Shown: positions 3,850 through 34,833 of the stretch, piece after piece
Layout of the letters: every line of letters starts with the position of its first letter
Position numbering within the stretch: the stretch's first letter is position 1
Notes under the pieces: model-generated
What the model was told of the DNA's origin: nothing
The model's database searches: none
Seen by the model: the letters and a program-made list of their open reading frames with translations, nothing else
IMG/VR virus record: IMGVR_UViG_3300038479_000011
Span: 1 to 38,793 of that record
DNA from: a virus
Reading direction: 5' to 3' (one strand)
DNA: 38,793 nucleotides
Translations under genes and position numbers: made by a program

Positions 3850-4875
3850 CTAGGCGTAGAACCCGTCTTCCCAGAGCGTCAGAAGACGCTGAAAGTACAT
3901 CTCGTACTGCGGAGCCACGACCTCGGTCGAGAAGCGCGACAGGGCGTATCTACGGATCTGGCGTCGGTTGAGTTCAGGGGCCAGCTTGGTCGCCTCGCAG
4001 AACTCCCTGAAGCTCCGGCATCTGAAGCCGACCTTCGGAGTCACCGTCTCTGTGAACACGCCCCAATCCGTCGTGATCACAGGCGTCCCGCACAGCATGG
4101 ACTCTACGTGGACCCCTCCGAAGGGCTCGATGTATTGGGTGGGGACGAAGGTGGCGACGGCTCCGCCCAACAGATCTGATCGCTGTTCTGGGTCGACCAC
4201 TCCCACATACGTGCAGTTGTCAGGGAGGTCTCCGGGGTCTCCCGCACCTGCGAGGATGAGGCGAACACCCATCCGCTGTGTGACCTCGACTGCAAGCCGC
4301 CATCCCTTTCGGTCGATCAGTCGCCCAATGTAGAGGAAGTAATCCTCAGGTGTCCCAGAATACTTGAACTCTTTCGGGTCGAAGTAGTTCGGGATCACGG
4401 CATCGAAGTAGTGCCCGTCGGCTTCGTAAGCGCCTGTCTGGCCGTAGACCATGTGCATCCAGGCATACGACTCGAACACCCGGTAAGCAGAGAACGTTCC
4501 CGCGTACCCGACCCCGTACTCCACTGACATGTGCCCTGGGTACGCCTCTGCGATGTCTCTCTGGGCGTATCCCCCGATGATGCAGATGAAGTCTCGAGGA
4601 GCGAGTCTGGTGCTCAGCGCCTGAATGACGAGTCTGTCAAAGAACTCGAAGTTCTCGTCCGTGAACTCGGGGATGTTTGCCGGATCGTTCTTCGGGATGA
4701 CGAGGGAGACAAGTTCTGAGACCTGGGCCTCGTTCTCGGGGCCGGCATACAAGATGACCTCATGCCCGAGGTCGGTCATCATGTCGCAGAACCGACGGAC
4801 CTTTGTCGTGTAGGCGCACCAGGAATAGGCCTTGGTGGTGTTGGTCCACGGGAGCCCGACGACGTGGAACCTCAC
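3850..4875 (-). CDS. glycosyltransferase, GT4/GT-B family
   Basis: A 341-residue GT-B fold enzyme. The C-terminal half has the sugar-nucleotide binding pattern: FLYIGRLIDRKGW near 180-192, LILAGAGD near 207, and the E-x7-E motif (E250 and E258 in EPFGGVHVE) followed by SMLCGTPVI. The N-terminal half begins with a typical acceptor-side Rossmann segment, and an internal CIIGGYAQ loop is present. It transfers a sugar from a nucleotide donor to an unknown acceptor. It lies between fibre genes and the lysis cassette, so the acceptor may be a virion fibre or the cell surface. Start GTG overlaps the preceding stop as GTGA. Confidence 0.88.
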   Translation of the reverse strand: MRFHVVGLPWTNTTKAYSWCAYTTKVRRFCDMMTDLGHEVILYAGPENEAQVSELVSLVIPKNDPANIPEFTDENFEFFDRLVIQALSTRLAPRDFICIIGGYAQRDIAEAYPGHMSVEYGVGYAGTFSAYRVFESYAWMHMVYGQTGAYEADGHYFDAVIPNYFDPKEFKYSGTPEDYFLYIGRLIDRKGWRLAVEVTQRMGVRLILAGAGDPGDLPDNCTYVGVVDPEQRSDLLGGAVATFVPTQYIEPFGGVHVESMLCGTPVITTDWGVFTETVTPKVGFRCRSFREFCEATKLAPELNRRQIRRYALSRFSTEVVAPQYEMYFQRLLTLWEDGFYA

Positions 4876-7737: not shown

Positions 7738-8315
<578 letters not shown>

Positions 8316-8316
<1 letters not shown>

Positions 8317-12400: not shown

Positions 12401-13837
12401 GACCATCTGGTCCACCAGACCTGAGGGGCCGAAGACCTTCTGGGCCTGGTCTCTCTTCTTCCCGAAGGTCAGGGCCTCCTCTTTCTTCCCGATCTGGCGC
12501 TTCTGGACCACGTTCTCGAGGAGGGAATCGTCCTTCGGGACCGCCTCCTGAGCCCCCTTGTTGGCCTTGTCCAGAGTGGTAGCCAGCTCATATTGGGCCT
12601 TGTCCAGCCTTGTGACGTTCTGCACCAGCCTGTCAGTGGCGTCCAGACGCTCCAGGAACACTCTCCTGCCGTCTGAAAGGTCATCCCTGGCCCTCAGCAC
12701 CTCCCGAGCCTGTTTGGAGGCGTACAGGCCAATAGAGCCGTCCGGTTTCCGAACCGCGGCCACGTCCGGCTCCTCCCCGCCATGTCCTACCAGTGCTTCC
12801 TCGGTCTCGAACCTCACAGGCCCGTCCAGGTACTTTGTGACAGCCTCCCTGACAGGAAGCGTGACGCTCGGGTCTTTGAGGAGGTCCTGGATGTTCTTCC
12901 CCCGGTCCTGCTGGTAGAAGATGTCCTGGAAGGTCTTCTGCTCCTCGGGGGTCAGAGCCGAGTAGGCGTCCAGGGCCGGGGCCATCATATTTTGGTAGAT
13001 GCCCGTGGCCAGCTGGTTGTTCGTCATGTACTCCTTGACGAACTGCTGGACGGGGGCCGATGTACCGAGCCTGGAGTCCTGGAGCCAGGTCTGGATCCGA
13101 TCCCCAATCGTCACGTCCGAGATCCCCGCCGCCGCTGAGCCGGGCTTGATCCCGATGCCTGAGACCCGGTTTGTGAGGGCCTTCACAAAGCCTTTGGTGA
13201 CTCCGTGCTCGGCTGCCTGCTCTGCGGTTTCTCCCCCCATTTCCGCCAGCCGAGCTCCCATGGCCGTTTTGGCCACGACCCCCCCGAGGTCAGCCGGCAT
13301 GATGTCCAGAAGAGAGACCAGAGGATGGTCGGCCAGTGCTGAGAACCCCTCAGAGCCCGAGAGGTTCGGATCGGCTCTCAGCACTGTCCCGATGTCGTAC
13401 ATCCCCGGCACGAAGCTCAGGAGGGTGTTCTGGAGCCAGTTGGCGGCTGTCGTGCCCAGATTGGCCCCCTCTTCCTTCTCCGGGTCTGCGACCGCTTCGA
13501 CGGTGTTCTTCAGGGTGTCGAACAACCCTGTGACGAGGTGCTGCGGTTCCAATCCTGTGACAATCGAGGCCAGGTCGTTCCGGGCGTTGTCGAAGACGCT
13601 GGTTGGTTGGGGGTTGTCCGAAGGACTGGGAGTGACGTCGTTGGGGTTGTTGGCTGCCAGGATGGCGCGATTCCGCTCTGCCGCGCTCATCGGGTCGTAG
13701 CCGTTCTGAAGCCGTGAGGCGTCTTCCTGGTACACAGGAATGTAGGCAGAGGCGGAGATCCCCTGTGTCTGCGCCCAGGCGACAGCCTTGTTCCACTCCG
13801 AGGAGAAGGATTCGTCTACCGTCTTCGGCCTGCTCAT
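9494..13837 (-). CDS. internal virion (ejection) protein, 1447 aa
   Basis: By far the largest gene. Residues 1-250 are mixed helical. About 360-720 is a long charged coiled coil (runs such as LTEREAKDAKLQRDREKKEL). About 720-1000 is helical. The C-terminal third contains hydrophobic segments (YTAHILFGGTFLLALRSTPF, LPFYGWTRHILKYVLTMPVD) compatible with membrane insertion. In T7-like and other short-tailed phages a protein of this size and location forms part of the ejectosome that crosses the cell envelope during DNA entry. No lysozyme motif was recognised. The two genes upstream are Gln/Ala-rich like smaller ejection proteins. A tape-measure protein is the main alternative, but there are no tail-tube or tail-assembly chaperone genes. 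Confidence 0.78.
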   Translation of the reverse strand: MSRPKTVDESFSSEWNKAVAWAQTQGISASAYIPVYQEDASRLQNGYDPMSAAERNRAILAANNPNDVTPSPSDNPQPTSVFDNARNDLASIVTGLEPQHLVTGLFDTLKNTVEAVADPEKEEGANLGTTAANWLQNTLLSFVPGMYDIGTVLRADPNLSGSEGFSALADHPLVSLLDIMPADLGGVVAKTAMGARLAEMGGETAEQAAEHGVTKGFVKALTNRVSGIGIKPGSAAAGISDVTIGDRIQTWLQDSRLGTSAPVQQFVKEYMTNNQLATGIYQNMMAPALDAYSALTPEEQKTFQDIFYQQDRGKNIQDLLKDPSVTLPVREAVTKYLDGPVRFETEEALVGHGGEEPDVAAVRKPDGSIGLYASKQAREVLRARDDLSDGRRVFLERLDATDRLVQNVTRLDKAQYELATTLDKANKGAQEAVPKDDSLLENVVQKRQIGKKEEALTFGKKRDQAQKVFGPSGLVDQMVDAMKKGRDDQVESLVPVLDRRLSEWGLNSVDASSNPAFRAVADQVSKIAKLIEGRQKMNDEIDHRILGEKHLTEREAKDAKLQRDREKKELAQRHVAERTEQRENLKASLGKINAARQVKLKNLDDLYEHMKDAALTKGDNAAVRATKAQADVIYQQVKGDIADLREKWFESKKLANKNYDQQATKARLDAEKAKATLAKKQAVEDKDLAAHHENWKIFHGQLTEEMRSYSQLVKDFHDAVYNHPSDEFTSAEVEIYQRQLMEHAHNAELIDATEKQLKQKSGWEQSRVDALHQNPDLLREQVYLFTRDVYENPANFTPELVDAAKEAMDDVRKSGIDELNTLISQGYHPMWLPRAGTFDRPGSAIKAMVGKGVPHVDVAHARIHDLTATRHDVVLGVSKAMAQTLRRDATIDFVEHSISPRVITGEELLPQIKALPGFEDLDVHVGTSLDAYASKLEELGLTRFDPTDLFGFSMPRWEAHATYLPTGLAKALQKTRDMESKGDKGLFDKTNQVFRYSILGLSPRYTAHILFGGTFLLALRSTPFMPSMLLKAAKAMKDGSIPDEVFRQPAQEGYGRFQYALKEHAFSSGKQLANLAVGEHVEKVQGVLLSKASPFHYLKAAADINFRFTRYATRMQSAIAYMDYMSAAERKTSFIDEVSGQVMPMTKERAMVEGMRHVQEVFGDLRSMSPLERQVAKNILPFYGWTRHILKYVLTMPVDHPWRAMVLALTAFENSEEVPKGLPQRIQFLFFLGSPDSQGNVSAIDTRFMDPLRDVANYASLGGWIQGLNPVFLGPAAMMDPQLVYGSTSLYPNLTYNDMYGIETAGAQGNAVSGLQQFVPQLGALSQALEAATNARSEATSDPNAFYKSVFNSLNIPFAQVQKVNVKQIAAKDEIARYDVAKQAATNAFSSGDFGLLAGYSSVPNPLNPDYEITPKELEAVYNNALASYPGQQPINVLLPPPTPAGY

Positions 13838-13840
13838 GGG

Positions 13841-14713
13841 TTACCCCGGAGCGGAGCCGGTATCACTCGGAACCGAGGTCTGCGTCGCCCCCGCCGCCGC
13901 CTGTGGAATAGGGGGGATCTGGGGGGCGTTGGCTCGCTGGCCGGGAACGGCCAGATTGGAGAGGTCAGTGACGCCCGCTCCTCCGGCTCCGCCCGTCCCA
14001 GACTGCTGGAGGTAGTACAGAAGGGCAGGAGGAAGGTTCTCAGCCGTGGACGTGGGGATCTGGCCGTAGTAGTTGAGGTTCGACTGGAGGTGGGTCCCGA
14101 GCCCCTGGAGCCAGGTCTGCTCCGGTGCCGTCGTCACCCCGAGAGCGTTGGCTCCCGCCATCCCCGACAAGGCTTGATCGACTCCCTGCTGCCCCGCTCC
14201 GTAGGCCTGCCCGTAGGCATTCATGGCTGCCTGCATGGGGGAGTCGTTGGCGTTGGCCTGAGCGATGTTGGAGTCGAGCCATTGGGCGGCTGAGGAACCT
14301 GGGGACACGCCTGAGGCAGCCAGGGCTTGCCCGACCGCGCTCTGAGTTGCTGAGGCCGTGTCCCCACCCGAGATGGCTTTCTCGATAGGAGCCTGCTCTT
14401 GTTCCAGTTGTGTTACAAGTCCCTGACCAAGCTTGTTGAAGGGGTTCGCCGCGATCTGCGCTTCGATCTGGGCCTCGGTCAGAGGCTTGTCGGAGTCTGA
14501 CTTGGCCTTCTTCTTCGGGTCCTTCTTCTTCTCGGGAGCCGAGTCCCCGATCCCGAAGATGTTCAGGGGGTCGTGCTTGCCGATCTCGGTGGCGAAGTGC
14601 CCCACATCTCCCAAGGCCCCGGCAATGTCGTTGTAGCCAGCGGCGACGTCATGCCGCCCCTCTCCGAGAAGGCCCTGGTCATCGCCGGTTCCCTTGGTCT
14701 TCTTCTTGGCCAT
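13841..14713 (-). CDS. putative ejection/internal virion protein, 290 aa
   Basis: Starts with a Lys-rich segment (MAKKKTKG), has a second Lys cluster (EKKKDPKKKAKSDSDK) near residue 60, then a long Ala/Gln/Gly-rich helical region (ATQSAVGQALAASGVSPGS, MQAAMNAYGQAYGAGQQGV) and a Pro-rich tail. Composition resembles small internal virion proteins of podoviruses. It is placed directly before the 1447-residue protein and after a Gln-rich protein, making a three-gene block in the order expected for an ejectosome. No enzymatic motif. Confidence 0.7.
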   Translation of the reverse strand: MAKKKTKGTGDDQGLLGEGRHDVAAGYNDIAGALGDVGHFATEIGKHDPLNIFGIGDSAPEKKKDPKKKAKSDSDKPLTEAQIEAQIAANPFNKLGQGLVTQLEQEQAPIEKAISGGDTASATQSAVGQALAASGVSPGSSAAQWLDSNIAQANANDSPMQAAMNAYGQAYGAGQQGVDQALSGMAGANALGVTTAPEQTWLQGLGTHLQSNLNYYGQIPTSTAENLPPALLYYLQQSGTGGAGGAGVTDLSNLAVPGQRANAPQIPPIPQAAAGATQTSVPSDTGSAPG

Positions 14714-21899: not shown

Positions 21900-22865
21900 T
21901 TATGCCGTGAGGGCGGTGAACTTGCCCTGAACCTGGGGATTCGTGCAGATGAGGTTCCCGGCGAAGTAGACCAGCGACGTGATGACGAACTGGTTGGTGG
22001 GCTGTTGGAAGTCCCCGACCTCGAAGTCACCGTTCTGGTTGATGATGAGTTCGAAGTAGCTCTCGTTCAGGAAGAAGAGAAGACCTTCCGTCCCTGTGGT
22101 GGAGATGTGCTCGTCCACGATCCAGGGCTGGTTCCGGTACCAACCACCGGAGAACCCTCCCGAGGCAAACGACTGGTCGACCACCGCTGTCGGCTGGGTG
22201 TACTGCACCTGAGCCTGAAGCAGGTTCTCGAACCGGGTGAGGTTCGCCCGAGTCGACACGGTTACCGTCGGAGAACGAGCGCCCTTGGTCGACAGGTCCC
22301 AGAGGCTGTTCATGGCGGACATCGACAGCGTTGTGGTCGTGGTGTCCAACTGTGCCTTCAGGAAGGGGTAGGACGATCTCGACAGACCGGCGTAGTTGGC
22401 TGAGATGGTCCCGTTGTCCACGATCTCGTAGATGCCGTCGATGGCCTTGAAGTTCGTCCCGTCGCTCCAGATCCCGTAGGCGATCTTGTCGCGCATGTCC
22501 ATCTTGGCCAGTTCGCACTGTTCCACGACGTAGTTGGCGACGGCGTACTCACTGTCGGCCCGGATCAGGCTTCTCTGATCCAGGGTGACGTTGGTGTAGT
22601 ACTCCTTCCAGTCCCACGCGCCGGAGATCTCGGTGTCGGACGGCTCGACGTTCAGGACCTCAGGTCCGTAGAACGCGCCACCTGTCGCCCATGGCTGGTA
22701 GATGAACCGGGACTCGATGTGGAGCCCGCCCCGCCTCTTCACCCGGTTCTGCTGGAACAGTCTCCAGGTGAAGGGAGACCCGAGGTAGTACACGTCGGTG
22801 GCCTCCTCTCGGATGATCCGTCGAGAGATCGACGTGATCGTATCTACTCCGGTGGGGGTCACCAT
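21900..22865 (-). CDS. major capsid protein, HK97-fold type
   Basis: A 321-residue protein located after the scaffold gene. The order helix (SISRRIIREEATDVYYLGSP), extended arm, then strands and helices with KMDMRDKIAYGIWSDGTN, LSMSAMNSLWDLSTKGA and the terminal FFLNESYFELIINQNGDFEV is typical of phage major capsid proteins of the HK97 fold. The assignment depends on context plus size, since the fold lacks a strict motif. The protein would form the icosahedral shell around the scaffold. Confidence 0.82.
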   Translation of the reverse strand: MVTPTGVDTITSISRRIIREEATDVYYLGSPFTWRLFQQNRVKRRGGLHIESRFIYQPWATGGAFYGPEVLNVEPSDTEISGAWDWKEYYTNVTLDQRSLIRADSEYAVANYVVEQCELAKMDMRDKIAYGIWSDGTNFKAIDGIYEIVDNGTISANYAGLSRSSYPFLKAQLDTTTTTLSMSAMNSLWDLSTKGARSPTVTVSTRANLTRFENLLQAQVQYTQPTAVVDQSFASGGFSGGWYRNQPWIVDEHISTTGTEGLLFFLNESYFELIINQNGDFEVGDFQQPTNQFVITSLVYFAGNLICTNPQVQGKFTALTA

Positions 22866-25123: not shown

Positions 25124-26992
25124 TCACCCACCGGGCTTCGGTGCTTGGGAGGGCTGGCGCTTGGGACTTCCCCCGCCTTTCCCTGCGCTCTGACCTGCGG
25201 CTGCCTGGGCCTGGGCCAGTTGCATCTCCATCTGCTGCTGTGCCTGCTTCCGCTGCTGGACGGCCTTCCAATGGGACACGCGGTAGGCCTGGAGGACGTA
25301 CTGGTCGTCCACCACGTTCATCTGCTTCAGGGTGTTGGCCTCCTGGATCCTGGCGGCGCGGGACGTCGGTTTCGAGCTTCCGGCGTTCACCAGCATCGTG
25401 AACCTCAGCGGAGCAAAAGTAACTTGATTCTTGTAATCAACGGTTGGGGCGTAGAAGTGCTGAGCGGCAAGTCGAATAGAAGACATCTCTCCTTCGTCCC
25501 CGACAATGGCCACGAAACGCGGAACGTCGTAGTTGATGATGACGAGGTTGGCGAGGAGTTCACCGGCTTTACGGAGAGTGCGTTCCAGGTTTCGGATGGC
25601 AGATCGAATACGAATGAATCCTGCCTCCTGACCAGCTTGAACCTGTTTGTCCGTTGCTCGACCAGATGGTACTTCCCCCTTGTTTGTAGCCGAGAGACCG
25701 GCAATGCGCTCCATCTCCTCTCTCCAGAACTGGACGAACTGGATCAGTGCGGGCGGAAGGTTCGGCGGCTGCAACCACTCCGGCCGGTTGTTGCTCTGAC
25801 CCGGAGAACTATTGACGTCGTAGATCTGACCCGGCTTGTTCATCCACGTCGTTCTGTCGGCTCCCGATCCTTTGACTCCGATCACAACCGGGTTGCCGGT
25901 GTAGATGATGTTGTTCTGACCCATGGCCAGAAGCGTGTTCATGGCCTGCTGGCACGGAGCAAGGTCACGTAGTATGGGAGATCCCCAAAACTCGCCGGTC
26001 TCCACATCGACATATCTGACGTAGGGGTGTCGGTTGGTGTGAAAGAGATTTTCGGCCAGCTCGTCAAGGAGGATCCGGTTACCCGACATGACCACGACGC
26101 GCCATTGGTCGATGACGACCTTGCGGGGTTCATCTCCCATCGACGGATCCGTGGGCTCGACGTCTTCCTCGTAGTTCTCCCGGAGCCAGAACTCATAGAC
26201 GTTCACTCCCTCCTGTCTGGAGTTGGTGTGCTGCTTGGCCGAGCCCGGTGCCCCCCAGGTGGTCGCTCCCTGCCCGGCATCCACGGGGATCAGTGCCCCC
26301 GCCTGCTTCTGGCGATTGGTCACCTGATTGGGAGGAAGGTGATCCCGGTCCGTGTCCCCGGTCAGCGTTGCGTCGTGGATCATCTTCTGGGTGGTATCCG
26401 GGTATCTGCGCTCGATCTCCGCCGCGCTCATGGTGTGGACTTCGATGATGTACTGAGCGTCCTCCAAGTCCGTGGCATAGGGGTCGACGTACAGGCACCA
26501 GGGCGACGTGCATTTGAGGGCGACGTTCCCCATCCCCTCGGTGAGCCCGGAGTCCCAGACGCACTTCAAGAACCCGGCCCCGTACATGGCCGCGTCCCAC
26601 AGCATTTTAGTGATCTCACCGTCCCAATCGTCCGACCGCATGGTCGAGTTGAGGACGGACTCCAACTGCTCTCCGAGCGTGTCAGACACCATCGAGTACA
26701 TGGAGAAGGGATCACAGGCGGCGGTGATGGAGAACTGGATCTCCTGGTCGGTCATCCAGGCGATGCGTGAGTCGACGGTGGGGAAGGTCTCGTTGGCTCT
26801 CGTCCCTGGGGCGGCGGGGACGGCAGGGGCGGCGCGGTTCATAGTGACGCGGTAGTTCCGCTTCCACTCGTTGAGCATCGAGCCCTTGGTTTCCTTGGCC
26901 TGGTTGTAGACGTCGCGGAGCCGACTGATGAACTCGGCCTCGTCGTAGGACGGAGGGGGTTCGACCTGGATCAGCGTGCCGGATGCGGTCAC
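25124..26992 (-). CDS. portal protein, 622 aa
   Basis: Length and position (downstream of the large terminase) fit a podovirus-type portal. Visible segments: N-terminal helices (FISRLRDVYNQAKETKGSML), NETFPTVDSRIAWMTDQEI, GAGFLKCVWDSG, YVDPYATDLEDAQYIIEVHT, the wing (VNVYEFWLRENYEEDVEP), the crown-side helix IRSAIRNLERTLRKAGELLA and a C-terminal Gln-rich tail (QQRKQAQQQMEMQLAQAQAA). The dodecamer forms the DNA channel at one vertex. Start GTG overlaps the preceding stop as GTGA. Third-position GC drops clearly between about 25405 and 25710, suggesting recombination inside the gene. Confidence 0.85.
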   Translation of the reverse strand: MTASGTLIQVEPPPSYDEAEFISRLRDVYNQAKETKGSMLNEWKRNYRVTMNRAAPAVPAAPGTRANETFPTVDSRIAWMTDQEIQFSITAACDPFSMYSMVSDTLGEQLESVLNSTMRSDDWDGEITKMLWDAAMYGAGFLKCVWDSGLTEGMGNVALKCTSPWCLYVDPYATDLEDAQYIIEVHTMSAAEIERRYPDTTQKMIHDATLTGDTDRDHLPPNQVTNRQKQAGALIPVDAGQGATTWGAPGSAKQHTNSRQEGVNVYEFWLRENYEEDVEPTDPSMGDEPRKVVIDQWRVVVMSGNRILLDELAENLFHTNRHPYVRYVDVETGEFWGSPILRDLAPCQQAMNTLLAMGQNNIIYTGNPVVIGVKGSGADRTTWMNKPGQIYDVNSSPGQSNNRPEWLQPPNLPPALIQFVQFWREEMERIAGLSATNKGEVPSGRATDKQVQAGQEAGFIRIRSAIRNLERTLRKAGELLANLVIINYDVPRFVAIVGDEGEMSSIRLAAQHFYAPTVDYKNQVTFAPLRFTMLVNAGSSKPTSRAARIQEANTLKQMNVVDDQYVLQAYRVSHWKAVQQRKQAQQQMEMQLAQAQAAAGQSAGKGGGSPKRQPSQAPKPGG

Positions 26993-27333: not shown

Positions 27334-29043
27334 CTAGTACCACTCCTCCACTCCGATGGACAGGTCCGACGTCGGGACCCTGCCTGCGAATCTACTAGGC
27401 CCGATGAGACTGGGCACCTGCCCCTCCCCCGCGATCCTGGGTGGCGTGATGCCGGGGATGTAGGGCGGGTTGGGGCCGGCCATGGCGGCGTAGTCCAGGT
27501 TGGCTCCTTCGGTGACCACGGTCATCCAACCTATTCCCAATGAGATCACCGTGTCGTCATGCCCCGATCTCCGTGAGGGGCCGTAGGTCCCGTCCTCGTT
27601 GGTCACGTACCGGGTCATCTCGTAGTAGGTGGCGGGGTGGTGGATGGTGGCCTGCTGCCTGTGGATGATCCCCTGCATGGTCCCCAGCATCTGCTTCTTG
27701 GTCTCATAGGTGGAGTTCCAGCCGTAGGCCTGCATCAGGACTCGGGGTCTGTCCGGCCTTCTGTCCATCCAGATATGGGGGTAGTTCGCTTCCCTCCAGG
27801 CAGCCAGGACGACCTTCCCGCCTCCCTGGACCTCGGTGTTCAGGATGGTCTCCGGGCCGTAGTAGAGAGCCATGGCCAGACTTATCTCCCCGATGGTCTG
27901 AGGGTCGGCGGACCCGTGCCACACCGCCACCTGATCCATTGAGGCACGGTCGATGACCTGGATGCAGGCCGGATCACCCTCCACCGTCCACGTCGGGTCG
28001 CAGGCCACCACGTATCTGCGTCGTCCTCTGGCGTCGGGCTGCTTGTAGATGAACAGGTGTCCCTCTTCGGTGGCTCTGAACGCCAGTCGTCCTCCGTCGT
28101 TGTAGAGATAGCCCTGTTCGAACTCGACGTCGGGGTGGTACATCTTGGCCAGTTGCGAGAGAGGGAAGACGTTCGACCCCGTGGACAGGAATGCCTCCTC
28201 CATCGAGCAGGGGTATTCCTCCTTGAACTTCTCCGGGTTGTTGTACCCGGCGATCTTCCTGCGTCTCCAGGCCAGTTTGGGGATGGTCATCTCGGAATAG
28301 AGGGCCAGCAGCTCACGCTCGTCGTCATCCAGATCCTGGTACTTCAGGTGGGTGGTCTTGATCTCGTACTCGTCGTGCTTCCACCATTCGAAGAAGAAGG
28401 GGTGGTAGGCGGACTTGTGGCCCGAGGGGTCGATGGCCTTCATCCACTCGTCGTGGAAGAACCCGCCGACTCCCTGGGCGGTCGACTCCAGGACCACGAT
28501 GGTCCCGTGGCCTTCGGGAATGGCTTCTCCGAGGTCCCCGGCGATGTTGTCGGCGTCCTCCCAGAAGGCGCACTCGGACAGATGGGCGGCCTGGATGGTC
28601 ATGCCCCGTCCGGGGTTCTCCTTTCCCGCCGTCACCGTCGTGAAGGTCGACCCGATGGGCTCCTCCCACTCCAGATATCCGACCCGATTGTACTTCGGTT
28701 CGAAGAACCGTTTGAAGGGCGACGTCTCCCAGAACCTCTTGGTCATGGAGAAGAGGTAGTCGGACTTCTCCTGGTCCGAGGAAAGAACCACCGCGTTGGT
28801 CCCCTGGTGGATGAAGCACCAGAGGAACAGGATGGCCTCGGTCACCGTGGAGATGCCGATCTGCCGGCCCTTCAGGACGATGATCCGTACCGGCAGGCCG
28901 GCGTTGTACTGACGCTCGACTTCGGCCACGAACTGGCGTTGCGCCCAGGCGAAGGGGGCGTTGCGGTCGAACTTGATCGGGTTGGAGTTCTTGGGCTTGA
29001 GCGTCAACTGCTCGAGCAGCGGCCAGAGGTCGAGGTTAGGCAC
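27334..29043 (-). CDS. terminase large subunit
   Basis: 569 residues with both terminase activities visible. ATPase: Walker A KGRQIGIST (58-66), a Walker B region AAHLSECAFWED (153-163, E157 catalytic), and the coupling motif VLESTAQG (185-191). Nuclease: VACDPTW with D349, NTEVQG with E404, and GHDDTVISLG with D496/D497, an RNase-H-like catalytic triad. It powers DNA packaging into the procapsid through the portal and cuts the concatemer. It begins 8 bases before the end of the small-subunit candidate. Confidence 0.93.
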   Translation of the reverse strand: MPNLDLWPLLEQLTLKPKNSNPIKFDRNAPFAWAQRQFVAEVERQYNAGLPVRIIVLKGRQIGISTVTEAILFLWCFIHQGTNAVVLSSDQEKSDYLFSMTKRFWETSPFKRFFEPKYNRVGYLEWEEPIGSTFTTVTAGKENPGRGMTIQAAHLSECAFWEDADNIAGDLGEAIPEGHGTIVVLESTAQGVGGFFHDEWMKAIDPSGHKSAYHPFFFEWWKHDEYEIKTTHLKYQDLDDDERELLALYSEMTIPKLAWRRRKIAGYNNPEKFKEEYPCSMEEAFLSTGSNVFPLSQLAKMYHPDVEFEQGYLYNDGGRLAFRATEEGHLFIYKQPDARGRRRYVVACDPTWTVEGDPACIQVIDRASMDQVAVWHGSADPQTIGEISLAMALYYGPETILNTEVQGGGKVVLAAWREANYPHIWMDRRPDRPRVLMQAYGWNSTYETKKQMLGTMQGIIHRQQATIHHPATYYEMTRYVTNEDGTYGPSRRSGHDDTVISLGIGWMTVVTEGANLDYAAMAGPNPPYIPGITPPRIAGEGQVPSLIGPSRFAGRVPTSDLSIGVEEWY

Positions 29044-32395: not shown

Positions 32396-32424
32396 TTGAC
32401 AAGCTCTCCCCGAAGGTTCACAAT
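32396..32424 (+). promoter_or_regulatory. predicted promoter of the plus-strand operon
   Basis: TTGACA, 17 bases, CACAAT: a perfect -35 and a 4-of-6 -10 with ideal spacing. Transcription would start near 32431, giving a short leader before the zinc-finger gene. Confidence 0.65.
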
Positions 32425-32489: not shown

Positions 32490-32717
32490 GTGAAGGGCCA
32501 GGAGGGCTTTCACGCGGCCTACAAGGGCCGCTGCAAGGGCTGTGGGGAGTTCTACGTCCCCGGAGACACCATCTGGTCCCCAGGCAAGGGCGGAGGCGCC
32601 TTCCACATCCGGTGCCAGCCTCCCCTGAAGTTCCGTGAGGCGACCGCTCAGGACGTCGAGGAGCTGACCTCCCGCTCACAAGCCCGCAGGAAGGGGATCT
32701 ATTCGGACCCCCTCTGA
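32490..32717 (+). CDS. zinc-finger protein, 75 aa
   Basis: Contains CKGCGEFYVPGD and, 20 residues later, HIRC: a C-x2-C...H-x2-C site of the kind seen in small phage zinc-finger proteins with a lysine/glycine-rich loop (SPGKGGGAFHIRC). GTG 32490 overlaps the stop of a 9-codon frame (MTPCLGNAK, 32464-32493) which has AAGGAG upstream; this leader may couple translation. An in-frame GTG at 32460 is possible but lies too close to the ribosome site. The tail is basic. First gene of the plus-strand operon. Confidence 0.7.
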   Translation: MKGQEGFHAAYKGRCKGCGEFYVPGDTIWSPGKGGGAFHIRCQPPLKFREATAQDVEELTSRSQARRKGIYSDPL

Positions 32718-33150
32718 CTTCCCCCCCGAGCTGAGAGATCCCGTAAAAGTGGGTAGCGGAGCGAGACTCAACCCTACGATCCGTCCTCAGAATGTAGAGA
32801 TTTCTCCCTGGTCAACAGGTTATTCCCAGTTTTCTGGCCCGGCTGCAAGTAGGGAAGAAGTTCGCCTTGAAACCAGTGCTCCGCTAGGGATCGGCGCAGC
32901 CGATAAAAGCTTCTGCCGCCTGCCTCCGGCAGTTGGCCTCGATGCAAAATCCACCTGCGATTTTTTCAGATCCGCCGTTTTTCTGCGCTGTGGATTTAGA
33001 AACAGAGGGGTGTGGAAGCTCCAACAGCTTTCTATACATGCTGGTCACAGGGCCAAATGGATCACCTGGTGGTGCGGCGTGGGGAGCGCACCGGGGGGCC
33101 GGCAGAGAGGGTGGAATGGGGCCGCCGTGGCTATGGTAGAACACCGACGC

Positions 33151-33168
33151 TTGTACCGGTCGGTACAA
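33151..33168. promoter_or_regulatory. TetR-type palindrome, copy A
   Basis: TTGTACCGGTCGGTACAA: two 8-base half sites (TTGTACCG / CGGTACAA) around a 2-base centre. It has the size and spacing of TetR-family operators in Actinobacteria. Confidence 0.75.
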
Positions 33169-33234
33169 CAACAGACGATCTCGACCATCGTCCATTGACG
33201 TCTGATGAGCCATCGTCGCTTCGCTGCGTCTTGT

Positions 33235-33252
33235 TTGTACCGGTCAGTACAA
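33235..33252. promoter_or_regulatory. TetR-type palindrome, copy B
   Basis: TTGTACCGGTCAGTACAA, one mismatch to copy A, in the second half site. Its centre is 84 bp from copy A and 28 bp from copy C. Confidence 0.7.
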
Positions 33253-33262
33253 CGGTTCAGTC

Positions 33263-33281
33263 TTGTACCGGTCGGTACAAT
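33263..33281. promoter_or_regulatory. TetR-type palindrome, copy C, overlapping a TACAAT -10 box
   Basis: TTGTACCGGTCGGTACAA, identical to copy A. The last bases plus the next T read TACAAT (33276-33281), five of six to the -10 consensus, so repressor binding would cover a possible promoter. The matching -35 is weak. Confidence 0.7.
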
Positions 33282-33320: not shown

Positions 33321-33345
33321 TTTTTGCTAAAGGTTCCGTCAGAAT
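33317..33345 (+). promoter_or_regulatory. predicted promoter of the acidic-protein gene
   Basis: TTGCTT, 17 bases, CAGAAT (each 4 of 6). Transcription from about 33352 gives a 36-base leader with the GGGAGG ribosome site of the gene at 33388. Expression would depend on both operator families. Confidence 0.5.
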
Positions 33346-33387
33346 GGACGATAGAGATACCAACCGATACGAACTGGGAGGTTCGAG

Positions 33388-33681
33388 ATGGATGAAACAC
33401 TGATTGAGCCGGAAGTCGTGTTCAACATGGATCTCGCAAACGGTCCGACTGGTGAGCGCTTCTGTCGTGAGGCGTGCGACGTTATGGGCCTGCTGGTCGA
33501 TGATTCGTACTTCACGGACGACGATGAGGAGTCATTCCTGGGCGAGTACATCGACTGGCTGGATGACCAGCTCTCGATGCGTGGCTACCACGCACACTGG
33601 GATGCCGGCGACGTTGTGGTCTATGACCTTCGCCCATTGTCCGACGATGAGCGCGACGCGTTCTTCGAGCAGCTCGCCTGA
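33388..33681 (+). CDS. highly acidic 97-aa protein, possible DNA mimic
   Basis: GGGAGG lies six bases before ATG 33388. By direct count the protein has 27 Asp/Glu and only five Arg with no Lys, a net charge near -22. Acidic clusters include FTDDDEESF and LSDDERDAFFEQL. Small, very acidic early phage proteins often mimic DNA and inhibit restriction enzymes, nucleoid proteins or other DNA-binding proteins. The fold is unknown, so this is inference from charge. It lies directly after the palindrome-rich region and starts the second part of the plus operon. Confidence 0.72.
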   Translation: MDETLIEPEVVFNMDLANGPTGERFCREACDVMGLLVDDSYFTDDDEESFLGEYIDWLDDQLSMRGYHAHWDAGDVVVYDLRPLSDDERDAFFEQLA

Positions 33682-33744
33682 GTCAATCGACCCAGCTGGC
33701 GGACTGGGCCGATCTACTCCGGATCGGATGAACAAGGGGCAGTC

Positions 33745-34005
33745 ATGACCAGGACAGAAATCGCAGAGACGGTGGCGAGGATCGAGCGGCGGGAGGTAGA
33801 CCGACGGATGGCTTCTCGCATGGACGCGGGCCGGCGTCTGGTTGACGCTCGCAAGCACAACCAGGCAGTCATGCAATCGCTCGAGCTGGATGCATTGCAC
33901 CTGGCCATCACCGGGAACGTCCATGACGTCGCCATCATGGACTTCAAGCCGGCTCCCATCGTCGACAGCGTTGGCTTCGATGACGTCTGGGGTGACGCAC
34001 GCTGA
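33745..34005 (+). CDS. hypothetical protein, 86 aa
   Basis: AAGGGG precedes ATG 33745. The N-terminal half is a charged helix (IAETVARIERREVDRRMASR), the middle is LDALHLAITGNVHDVAIMDF, and the tail is Asp-rich. Hairpins lie both upstream (CCGATC/GATCGG, 33712-33729) and downstream of the gene. Not recognised. Small soluble early protein. Confidence 0.7.
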   Translation: MTRTEIAETVARIERREVDRRMASRMDAGRRLVDARKHNQAVMQSLELDALHLAITGNVHDVAIMDFKPAPIVDSVGFDDVWGDAR

Positions 34006-34013
34006 CCCGGTTG

Positions 34014-34057
34014 ATCGTCCCGAGCGCCTTTCCTCCTCGTTGGGCGCTTGGGTCGAT
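34014..34057. other. intercistronic hairpin in the plus-strand operon
   Basis: The arms 34014-34027 and 34044-34057 pair over 14 positions with one G-T wobble and one T-T mismatch, around a 16-base pyrimidine-rich loop. No U-tract follows. It sits between the 86-residue gene and the LAxTG membrane-protein gene and may adjust relative expression or mRNA decay. Confidence 0.6.
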
Positions 34058-34080
34058 TCACCGAACGAAAGGAAATCACA

Positions 34081-34317
34081 ATGACAGGCTGTGGGTCGTT
34101 CTCAGACGTTTCCTGTTCCAGTCCGCAACTCGGCACCGCTATCAGCGCTCCAGCGCCTCACGTTCAATCCTACGGTCCTCTCGTGCCACATGCGTCGAAT
34201 CTGGCCATGACTGGAGCGGATATCGTGACCATTCTGTTCTGGGGGTGCTTGCTGGTGACTGTGGGAGTGCTTGCAATGGTGAGCGGGCACAAGGCGAAGG
34301 GCAAGACCCCCAAGTGA
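34081..34317 (+). CDS. small membrane protein with LAxTG sortase-type signal, 78 aa
   Basis: GAAAGGAAATCACA fixes ATG 34081; an in-frame upstream ATG at 34048 has no such site. The C-terminal 38 residues are a complete cell-wall sorting signal: LAMTG (41-45), a hydrophobic helix (about 48-67) and a Lys-rich tail (HKAKGKTPK). LAxTG is the motif used by class E sortases of high-GC Actinobacteria. The first 40 residues are Ser/Pro-rich with two cysteines and lack a signal peptide, so an N-out single-pass insertion is needed. If processed, the short N-terminal part would be attached to the wall. A superinfection-exclusion role is a reasonable guess. Confidence 0.75.
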   Translation: MTGCGSFSDVSCSSPQLGTAISAPAPHVQSYGPLVPHASNLAMTGADIVTILFWGCLLVTVGVLAMVSGHKAKGKTPK

Positions 34318-34481
34318 CGCCTGACGAGGAACTGACGGAAGCCCTGATCGACTGCCCCGCCTGTGGGCCCGTCGTTCACCAGCGGATTCCGGAGGATGAA
34401 GCCCATTGCCGGTGCACTCGAGGTGAATTGAAGGGTGTCTCCGGTACGTGGTTGATCTGTTCCTGCCCCTGCCATGGATGA
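34314..34481 (+). CDS. Cys-rich 55-aa protein
   Basis: GTG 34314 overlaps the previous stop as GTGA. Six cysteines and three histidines appear as CPACGPVVH, HCRC and CSCPCHG, enough for one or two zinc sites. The start (acidic, VTPDEELTE) is similar to the starts of other Cys-rich genes in this genome. It overlaps the WhiB gene by eight bases. Function unknown. Confidence 0.7.
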   Translation: MTPDEELTEALIDCPACGPVVHQRIPEDEAHCRCTRGELKGVSGTWLICSCPCHG

Positions 34482-34833
34482 GTGGAAGGTCAGAGCTGCC
34501 TGCCGGGAGGCGCCGGACAAATCCGTCTTCTTCCCTGAACGTGCTACCGAAGTGGCCACTCAGAACCTGGTCAAGCAGGCGAAAGCCATCTGCAAACGCT
34601 GTCCGGTGAGGCGTGAGTGCCTGGACTACGCGCTCGAGCACTACGAGAAGCATGGCGTATGGGGCGGGACCACAGAGCGCGAGCGTCGGAAGCTCGAGAA
34701 GCCCCAGAAGCCGGACCCACGCTACGCCCACGGGACGCCGGAGAAGTACCGCTATGGAGGGTGCCGCTGCCTACCCTGTTCGATGGCCTGGTCTCGACAC
34801 CGGGCCTCGAATCCGTCAATGCGTGGCTTTTAG
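34474..34833 (+). CDS. WhiB-family transcriptional regulator with C-terminal extension
   Basis: A 119-residue protein. The WhiB domain (1-75) has the four Fe-S ligands C10, C40, C43 and C49 (CxxCx5C), the IC-RCPVRRECL core, and the GVWGGTTERERRKL turn that contacts region 4 of SigA. An added C-terminal segment (HGTPEKYRYGGCRCLPC) resembles small Cys-rich modules found separately in actinophages and is not part of ordinary WhiB proteins. Phage WhiB proteins modify host transcription or exclude superinfection. It ends the plus operon and overlaps the convergent nuclease gene by 18 bases. Confidence 0.92.
   Translation: MDEWKVRAACREAPDKSVFFPERATEVATQNLVKQAKAICKRCPVRRECLDYALEHYEKHGVWGGTTERERRKLEKPQKPDPRYAHGTPEKYRYGGCRCLPCSMAWSRHRASNPSMRGF

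Follow-up and report, generated by a model that had tools for sequence, protein, structure and literature searches.

Which protein, if any, recognizes three near-identical 18-bp palindromes that precede the one rightward operon of a phage? The initial annotation of this locus took them for operators of an actinobacterial TetR repressor, in a phage that encodes no TetR protein of its own. The window analysed here is the whole of one virus record, 38,793 bp from an uncultivated phage, and its features are collected in Table 1. The record ends in a 120-bp direct terminal repeat, as expected of a complete circular assembly, and low-complexity repeats of the GGCGGCATCCC type (43-640) are also seen at the record ends. 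Nearly all genes run leftward, with a single rightward operon at 33388-34833. The structural genes include one for a collagen-like Gly-X-Y protein (7738-8316), and a glycosyltransferase is encoded at 3850-4875 (phrog_3408, 2.7e-72). No tyrosine integrase was found in the phage, and no phage repressor was recognised, though ribbon-helix-helix-like (RHH) and HTH proteins are present.

Table 1. Features of the phage record considered in the analysis, with positions in the window
Feature	Position	Strand	Remarks
Source record IMGVR_UViG_3300038479_000011 (G000)	whole window, 38,793 bp		uncultivated phage; window is one virus record
Rad52-like protein	1083-1649	leftward	
Cas4-like nuclease	1964-2779	leftward	
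Ribbon-helix-helix-like protein, 60 aa	9213..9395	-	main alternative binder (candidate)
Capsid	21900-22865	leftward	
Portal	25124-26992	leftward	
Terminase large subunit	27334-29043	leftward	
HTH protein, 79 aa	30354..30593	-	also present in most of the relatives that lack the sites
Noncoding stretch 5' of operator A	33008..33092 (region 32940-33140)	+	conserved in L061 and L049/L067, where the operators are missing
Operator A (putative)	33151..33168	.	TTGTACCGGTCGGTACAA, exact, 8-2-8 dyad; identical to the DUF1348-tetR promoter palindrome in 5 genomes
Operator B (putative)	33235..33252	.	TTGTACCGGTCAGTACAA, 1 change: half-site CGGTACAA to CAGTACAA
Operator C (putative)	33263..33280	.	TTGTACCGGTCGGTACAA, exact; right half continues into TACAAT
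Possible -10 box TACAAT	33276..33281	+	inside/after operator C; inferred by reading the sequence
Gene 1, very acidic, 97 aa	33388..33681	+	27 D/E, 5 K/R; first in the rightward operon
Gene 2, 86 aa	33745..34005	+	no assigned function
Gene 3, 78 aa	34081..34317	+	one predicted membrane stretch (from the translation)
Gene 4, 55 aa, Cys-rich	34314..34481	+	CPAC...CRC...CSCPC; short match at the same position in relative L061
Gene 5, WhiB-like, 119 aa	34474..34833	+	last gene of the operon; PF02467 8.8e-24; PHROG WhiB 8.8e-25

Cultured relatives were tried as a guide to the host and rejected: none is close, and the TerL and capsid matches fall below 35% identity and have mixed hosts. Judged from WhiB only, the host is probably actinobacterial, because the phage matches of this gene are overwhelmingly to phages of Mycobacterium, Gordonia and Streptomyces, and among 14 control genomes WhiB occurs in Corynebacterium only. 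The WhiB gene is in none of the 20 related records searched. For the acidic protein at the head of the operon no relatives were found; it is modelled as a small alpha/beta fold, for which the PDB gave no match. An unrelated virus-like contig, G032 (L003), also holds a WhiB gene, with one TTGTACCGATCGGTACAA site about 5 kb away.

The initial annotation described the palindromes correctly. There are two exact copies and one with a single change, their starts are spaced by 84 and 28 bp, and copy C reads into a TACAAT box. All three are intergenic, 5' of the rightward operon, between the noncoding stretch conserved in relatives and the first rightward gene; the 84 bp between A and B amount to 8.0 helical turns. 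Across the window no further match to the family occurs at up to 3 mismatches, and shuffled sequences contain a mean of 0.02 matches to the 18-mer family. The window holds just this one repeated 7-4-7 palindrome family, while 0 of 100 random sequences contained a 7-4-7 palindrome that recurred, with at most 1 mismatch, inside 300 bp; these were first-order sequences with the window's dinucleotide composition, and any 7-4-7 palindrome was accepted, which corrects for the choice of pattern. The three-site observation is real and lies beyond chance. Because the flanks (20 bp per side) are identical at only 4-8 of 20 positions, the conserved unit is the 18-bp operator and not a longer duplication, and this dissimilarity argues for selection on the 18 bp. 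A perfect 10-base inverted repeat, ATCGTCCATT/AATGGACGAT (33187-33196 and 33343-33352), flanks sites B and C.

The identity of the sites is best addressed through bacterial genomes that carry the same dyad. One scan of 84,980 prokaryote species genomes returned the exact 18-mer five times, in two orders (Mesorhizobium four times, Sphingomonas once), and all five occurrences belong to DUF1348-tetR operon promoters, immediately 5' of a DUF1348 gene that is followed by a tetR gene. With the two-base centre left free (TTGTACCGNNCGGTACAA), the dyad is present in 4 of 299 Pseudomonadota genomes, one of the four being the Mesorhizobium genome used as search centre, and each time (4/4) it stands at a DUF1348-tetR operon. 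On these counts the 18-bp site is a near-specific marker of one widespread, uncharacterised regulator. This regulator combines TetR_N with an LmrA/YxaF-like C-terminal domain (PF21993), and its nearest solved structure is YxaF (1sgm); a literature search gave no paper naming DUF1348 and TetR together. At DUF1348 genes without an adjacent tetR (in Streptomyces, Burkholderia and Klebsiella) there is no such site, the pattern that a site tied to the TetR should give.

Operators that fit the same dyad with variation were found at the DUF1348-tetR operons of Sphingopyxis (TTGTACCGAACGGTACAA), Methylobacterium (TTGTACCGATCGGTACAG), Aminobacter (TTGTACCAATCGGTAAAC and TATTACCAAGCGGTACAA), Ensifer and Rhodococcus (ATGTACTGGTCAGTACAT, plus two weaker sites). 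The Rhodococcus operon is the one actinobacterial case found with clear operators, and it uses TGTACTGGTCAGTACA, whose half-site is the same as the changed half of phage site B (CAGTACA, CAGTACAA). Tandem operators 19 (once 20) bp apart occur at the DUF1348-tetR operons of Aminobacter, Agrobacterium, Pararhizobium, Ensifer, Tistrella, Novosphingobium and Rhodococcus; in the last (L068, 1952-2008) three of them lie in tandem upstream, 19 bp apart. The phage sites carry the 18-bp dyad TTGTACCG-N2-CGGTACAA, or a close variant of it, that characterizes a DUF1348-linked TetR operator. Since every genomic match tested sits at a DUF1348-tetR promoter, they resemble bona fide TetR-class operators, and the view that they are TetR-type operators is well supported. 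Of the earlier description as actinobacterial TetR operators, the TetR part therefore stands and the actinobacterial part, for the exact sequence, does not, all five exact matches being alphaproteobacterial. The genome search proposed there, run with the exact 18-mer, did end at tetR operons, none of them in Actinomycetota among the 84,980 genomes scanned. Absence from all candidate hosts, named in advance as evidence to the contrary, was thus found in part, for the exact 18-mer only, and it counts against control by a host TetR.

The best explanation of the locus, which may well be right and may equally well be wrong, is that an LmrA/YxaF-type TetR of the host, not encoded by the phage, represses the rightward operon through A, B and C. 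The absence of a phage TetR claimed at the outset is borne out, as TetR_N (PF00440) went unmatched in a six-frame search of the phage at E<=10, and likewise in the 20 related phage records at E<=1. Because the phage carries no such repressor, it probably borrows that of its host. Bound to site C, a dimer of the host TetR would mask the -10 box TACAAT and shut the promoter of the operon, and with it the acidic 97-aa protein, three small proteins and WhiB, while sites A and B would raise repressor occupancy. Were the host repressor to meet its ligand, or to be absent or limiting, the operon with its WhiB regulator would be expressed, and part of the phage programme would thereby be tied to the chemical or stress state of the host. 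Within this explanation we infer the actinobacterial host, a host TetR of this specificity, its binding, the repression and the ligand. That the sites let the phage sense its host is plausible.

The candidate promoter at site C gives a mixed picture. Its -35 element is poor (CGGTTC, at 17 bp), and a consensus promoter scan makes no call there, which counts against repression by a host TetR. In the Mesorhizobium DUF1348-tetR operons the palindrome also supplies TACAAT, 15-16 bp 3' of a TTGACN -35. The best consensus promoter of the region is at 32396-32424 (TTGACA-17-CACAAT), 5' of a small zinc-ribbon-like gene (32490-32717).

A wider and distinctly more tentative proposal from these patterns is that a probably virulent actinobacterial phage senses the chemical or stress state of its host through a host LmrA/YxaF-type TetR, acting on three operators that gate a WhiB-ending operon, as a TetR counterpart of CtrA and Spo0A. 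Among one-component sensors of bacteria, ligand-responsive repressors form the largest class. If a host TetR does gate a phage operon, such repressors have a share in deciding on lysis, and a phage could be turned on or off by a small molecule. We know of no TetR case in which a phage borrows the regulator of its host, and a literature search (TetR with host-encoded control and phage lysogeny, with subscription papers outside its scope) returned none on host TetR at phage promoters by title or abstract.

Relatives of the phage were found by terminase and capsid searches, with capsid identity up to 97%. At up to 3 mismatches they contain none of the sites, a point against a host TetR; the one exception, a 3-mismatch match in G014 (TTCCACCGGTGGGTACAA), probably arose by chance. 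Since the relatives include several fragmentary records, absence of the sites is firm only for L061 and L049, where the control region could be read. The early regions of the relatives cannot be aligned with that of the phage except at the kept noncoding stretch, and L061, the nearest relative, has a different palindrome, TTGACCGCGTGGTCAA, 5' of its first rightward gene. From both observations it follows that the control sites of this phage lineage turn over quickly. The control-promoter palindromes of L061 lie at 13318-13337 (TTGACCGCGTGGTCAA) and at 14371-14391 (TGTCAATAGGGGGTATTGACA, which overlies a -35 box). The kept noncoding stretch (gtgtggaagctccaac...agggccaaa) has T-runs, and its L049 version includes a DnaA box that is exact, TTATCCACA; it is perhaps a replication origin.

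Among viral contigs more widely, TTGTACYGNNCRGTACAA is found in 21, with one site each, mostly within ORFs, which is why we regard these single sites as chance level. In two of the contigs, L098 and L003, the site is intergenic, but it is single and the contigs are unrelated to the phage. L098 (65 kb, GC 63%) carries at 750-767 an exact copy of site B that continues into TACAAT. Several such sites on one viral contig occur in the window only, hence without recurrence, a further point against a host TetR. Searched against plasmid and phage collections, the 32-bp site had no exact match.

In the most serious rival, a phage regulator outside the TetR family binds A, B and C as an ordinary phage operator system. 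The likeliest such regulator is the RHH-like protein, which is real, is kept in relatives and, as modelled, shows both helices expected of an RHH monomer; the HTH protein is the second candidate. Three operators at an early promoter are ordinary phage design, and the early regions of relatives are wholly different, as operator-repressor pairs are, with TTGACCGCGTGGTCAA in place of the sites in L061. However, both genes lie in the late operon, and their homologues occur in relatives without the sites, which makes the two proteins less likely binders. Binding by a phage protein would also leave as coincidence the exact identity with TetR-operon promoters of unrelated bacteria, and as no tyrosine integrase was found there is no sign of an immunity repressor. 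On balance we consider this rival unlikely, though worth keeping in view.

The sites could instead act as decoys that titrate a scarce host TetR; as the phage replicates, the host regulon of this TetR would be derepressed, and phage transcription would hardly change. Three near-perfect copies, of which A and B form no full -10 box, are compatible with this function, and site copy number would presumably rise with replication. We find it improbable all the same: the sites are confined to one promoter region rather than scattered, site C makes a -10 box, and three is no unusual dose, given that native operons hold up to three (Rhodococcus). Less probable again is a relic, in which the sites came with a fragment of a host promoter and now belong to a constitutive phage promoter with nothing bound in the present host. 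The absence of the exact site from Actinomycetota in the scan agrees with such an origin, but three copies with different flanks, two of them exact 18-mers, are unlikely to survive unselected in a variable early region. An RNA element, with B and C paired as an 18-bp hairpin in the operon leader, has very little probability and was rejected: although folding of the region is stronger than in shuffles (z -3.1 and -4.1) and pairs B with C, the low energy is caused by the palindromes themselves, the corresponding region of a relative shows no unusual folding, no Rfam match reaches its cut-off, there is no T-run 3' of C, and hairpins require complementarity, not three identical copies.

Control by a host TetR can be set beside several known systems. 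The DUF1348-tetR operators are closest, sharing with the phage an identical 18-mer (five genomes), the same 8-2-8 dyad and, as in Mesorhizobium, a right half that supplies TACAAT. They adjoin their own cognate tetR gene, whereas the phage is without TetR_N anywhere and hence without any tetR. The native operons also have a single perfect site or an imperfect 19-bp tandem, unlike the 84- and 28-bp spacings of the phage, a difference that counts against a host TetR. CgmR of Corynebacterium glutamicum is an actinobacterial TetR whose 32-bp operator, CGTAACTGTACCGA-N4-TCGTTACAGTTACG, contains the half-site TGTACCGA common to the phage sites (PMC9210681). The likeness is to the half-site only; the operator is longer, its half-sites are spaced differently, and CgmR is a multidrug repressor of another subfamily (PMC9210681). 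QacR IR1, in the form quoted in PMC9210681 (CTTATAGACCGATCGATCGGTCTATAAG), shares the ACCG...CGGT core of a TetR operator but has another outer half-site and is longer. As for the use of host regulators by phages, CtrA sites in the promoters of Alphaproteobacteria phages have been proven by binding and reporter tests to confer host control (PMC9437464), and further cases of control by a host regulator cited there are the Spo0A sites of phi29 and, for temperate phages, LexA. The present locus is like them in its clustered, high-scoring sites in an intergenic phage promoter region and in a factor that is not phage-encoded, here or in the 20 related records. In those cases host and regulator are known and both binding and expression were tested, whereas here the host is a probable one, the regulator a putative one, and the family is TetR. 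Host-regulator sites in phage promoters are thus already established, and a TetR version would be new if confirmed.
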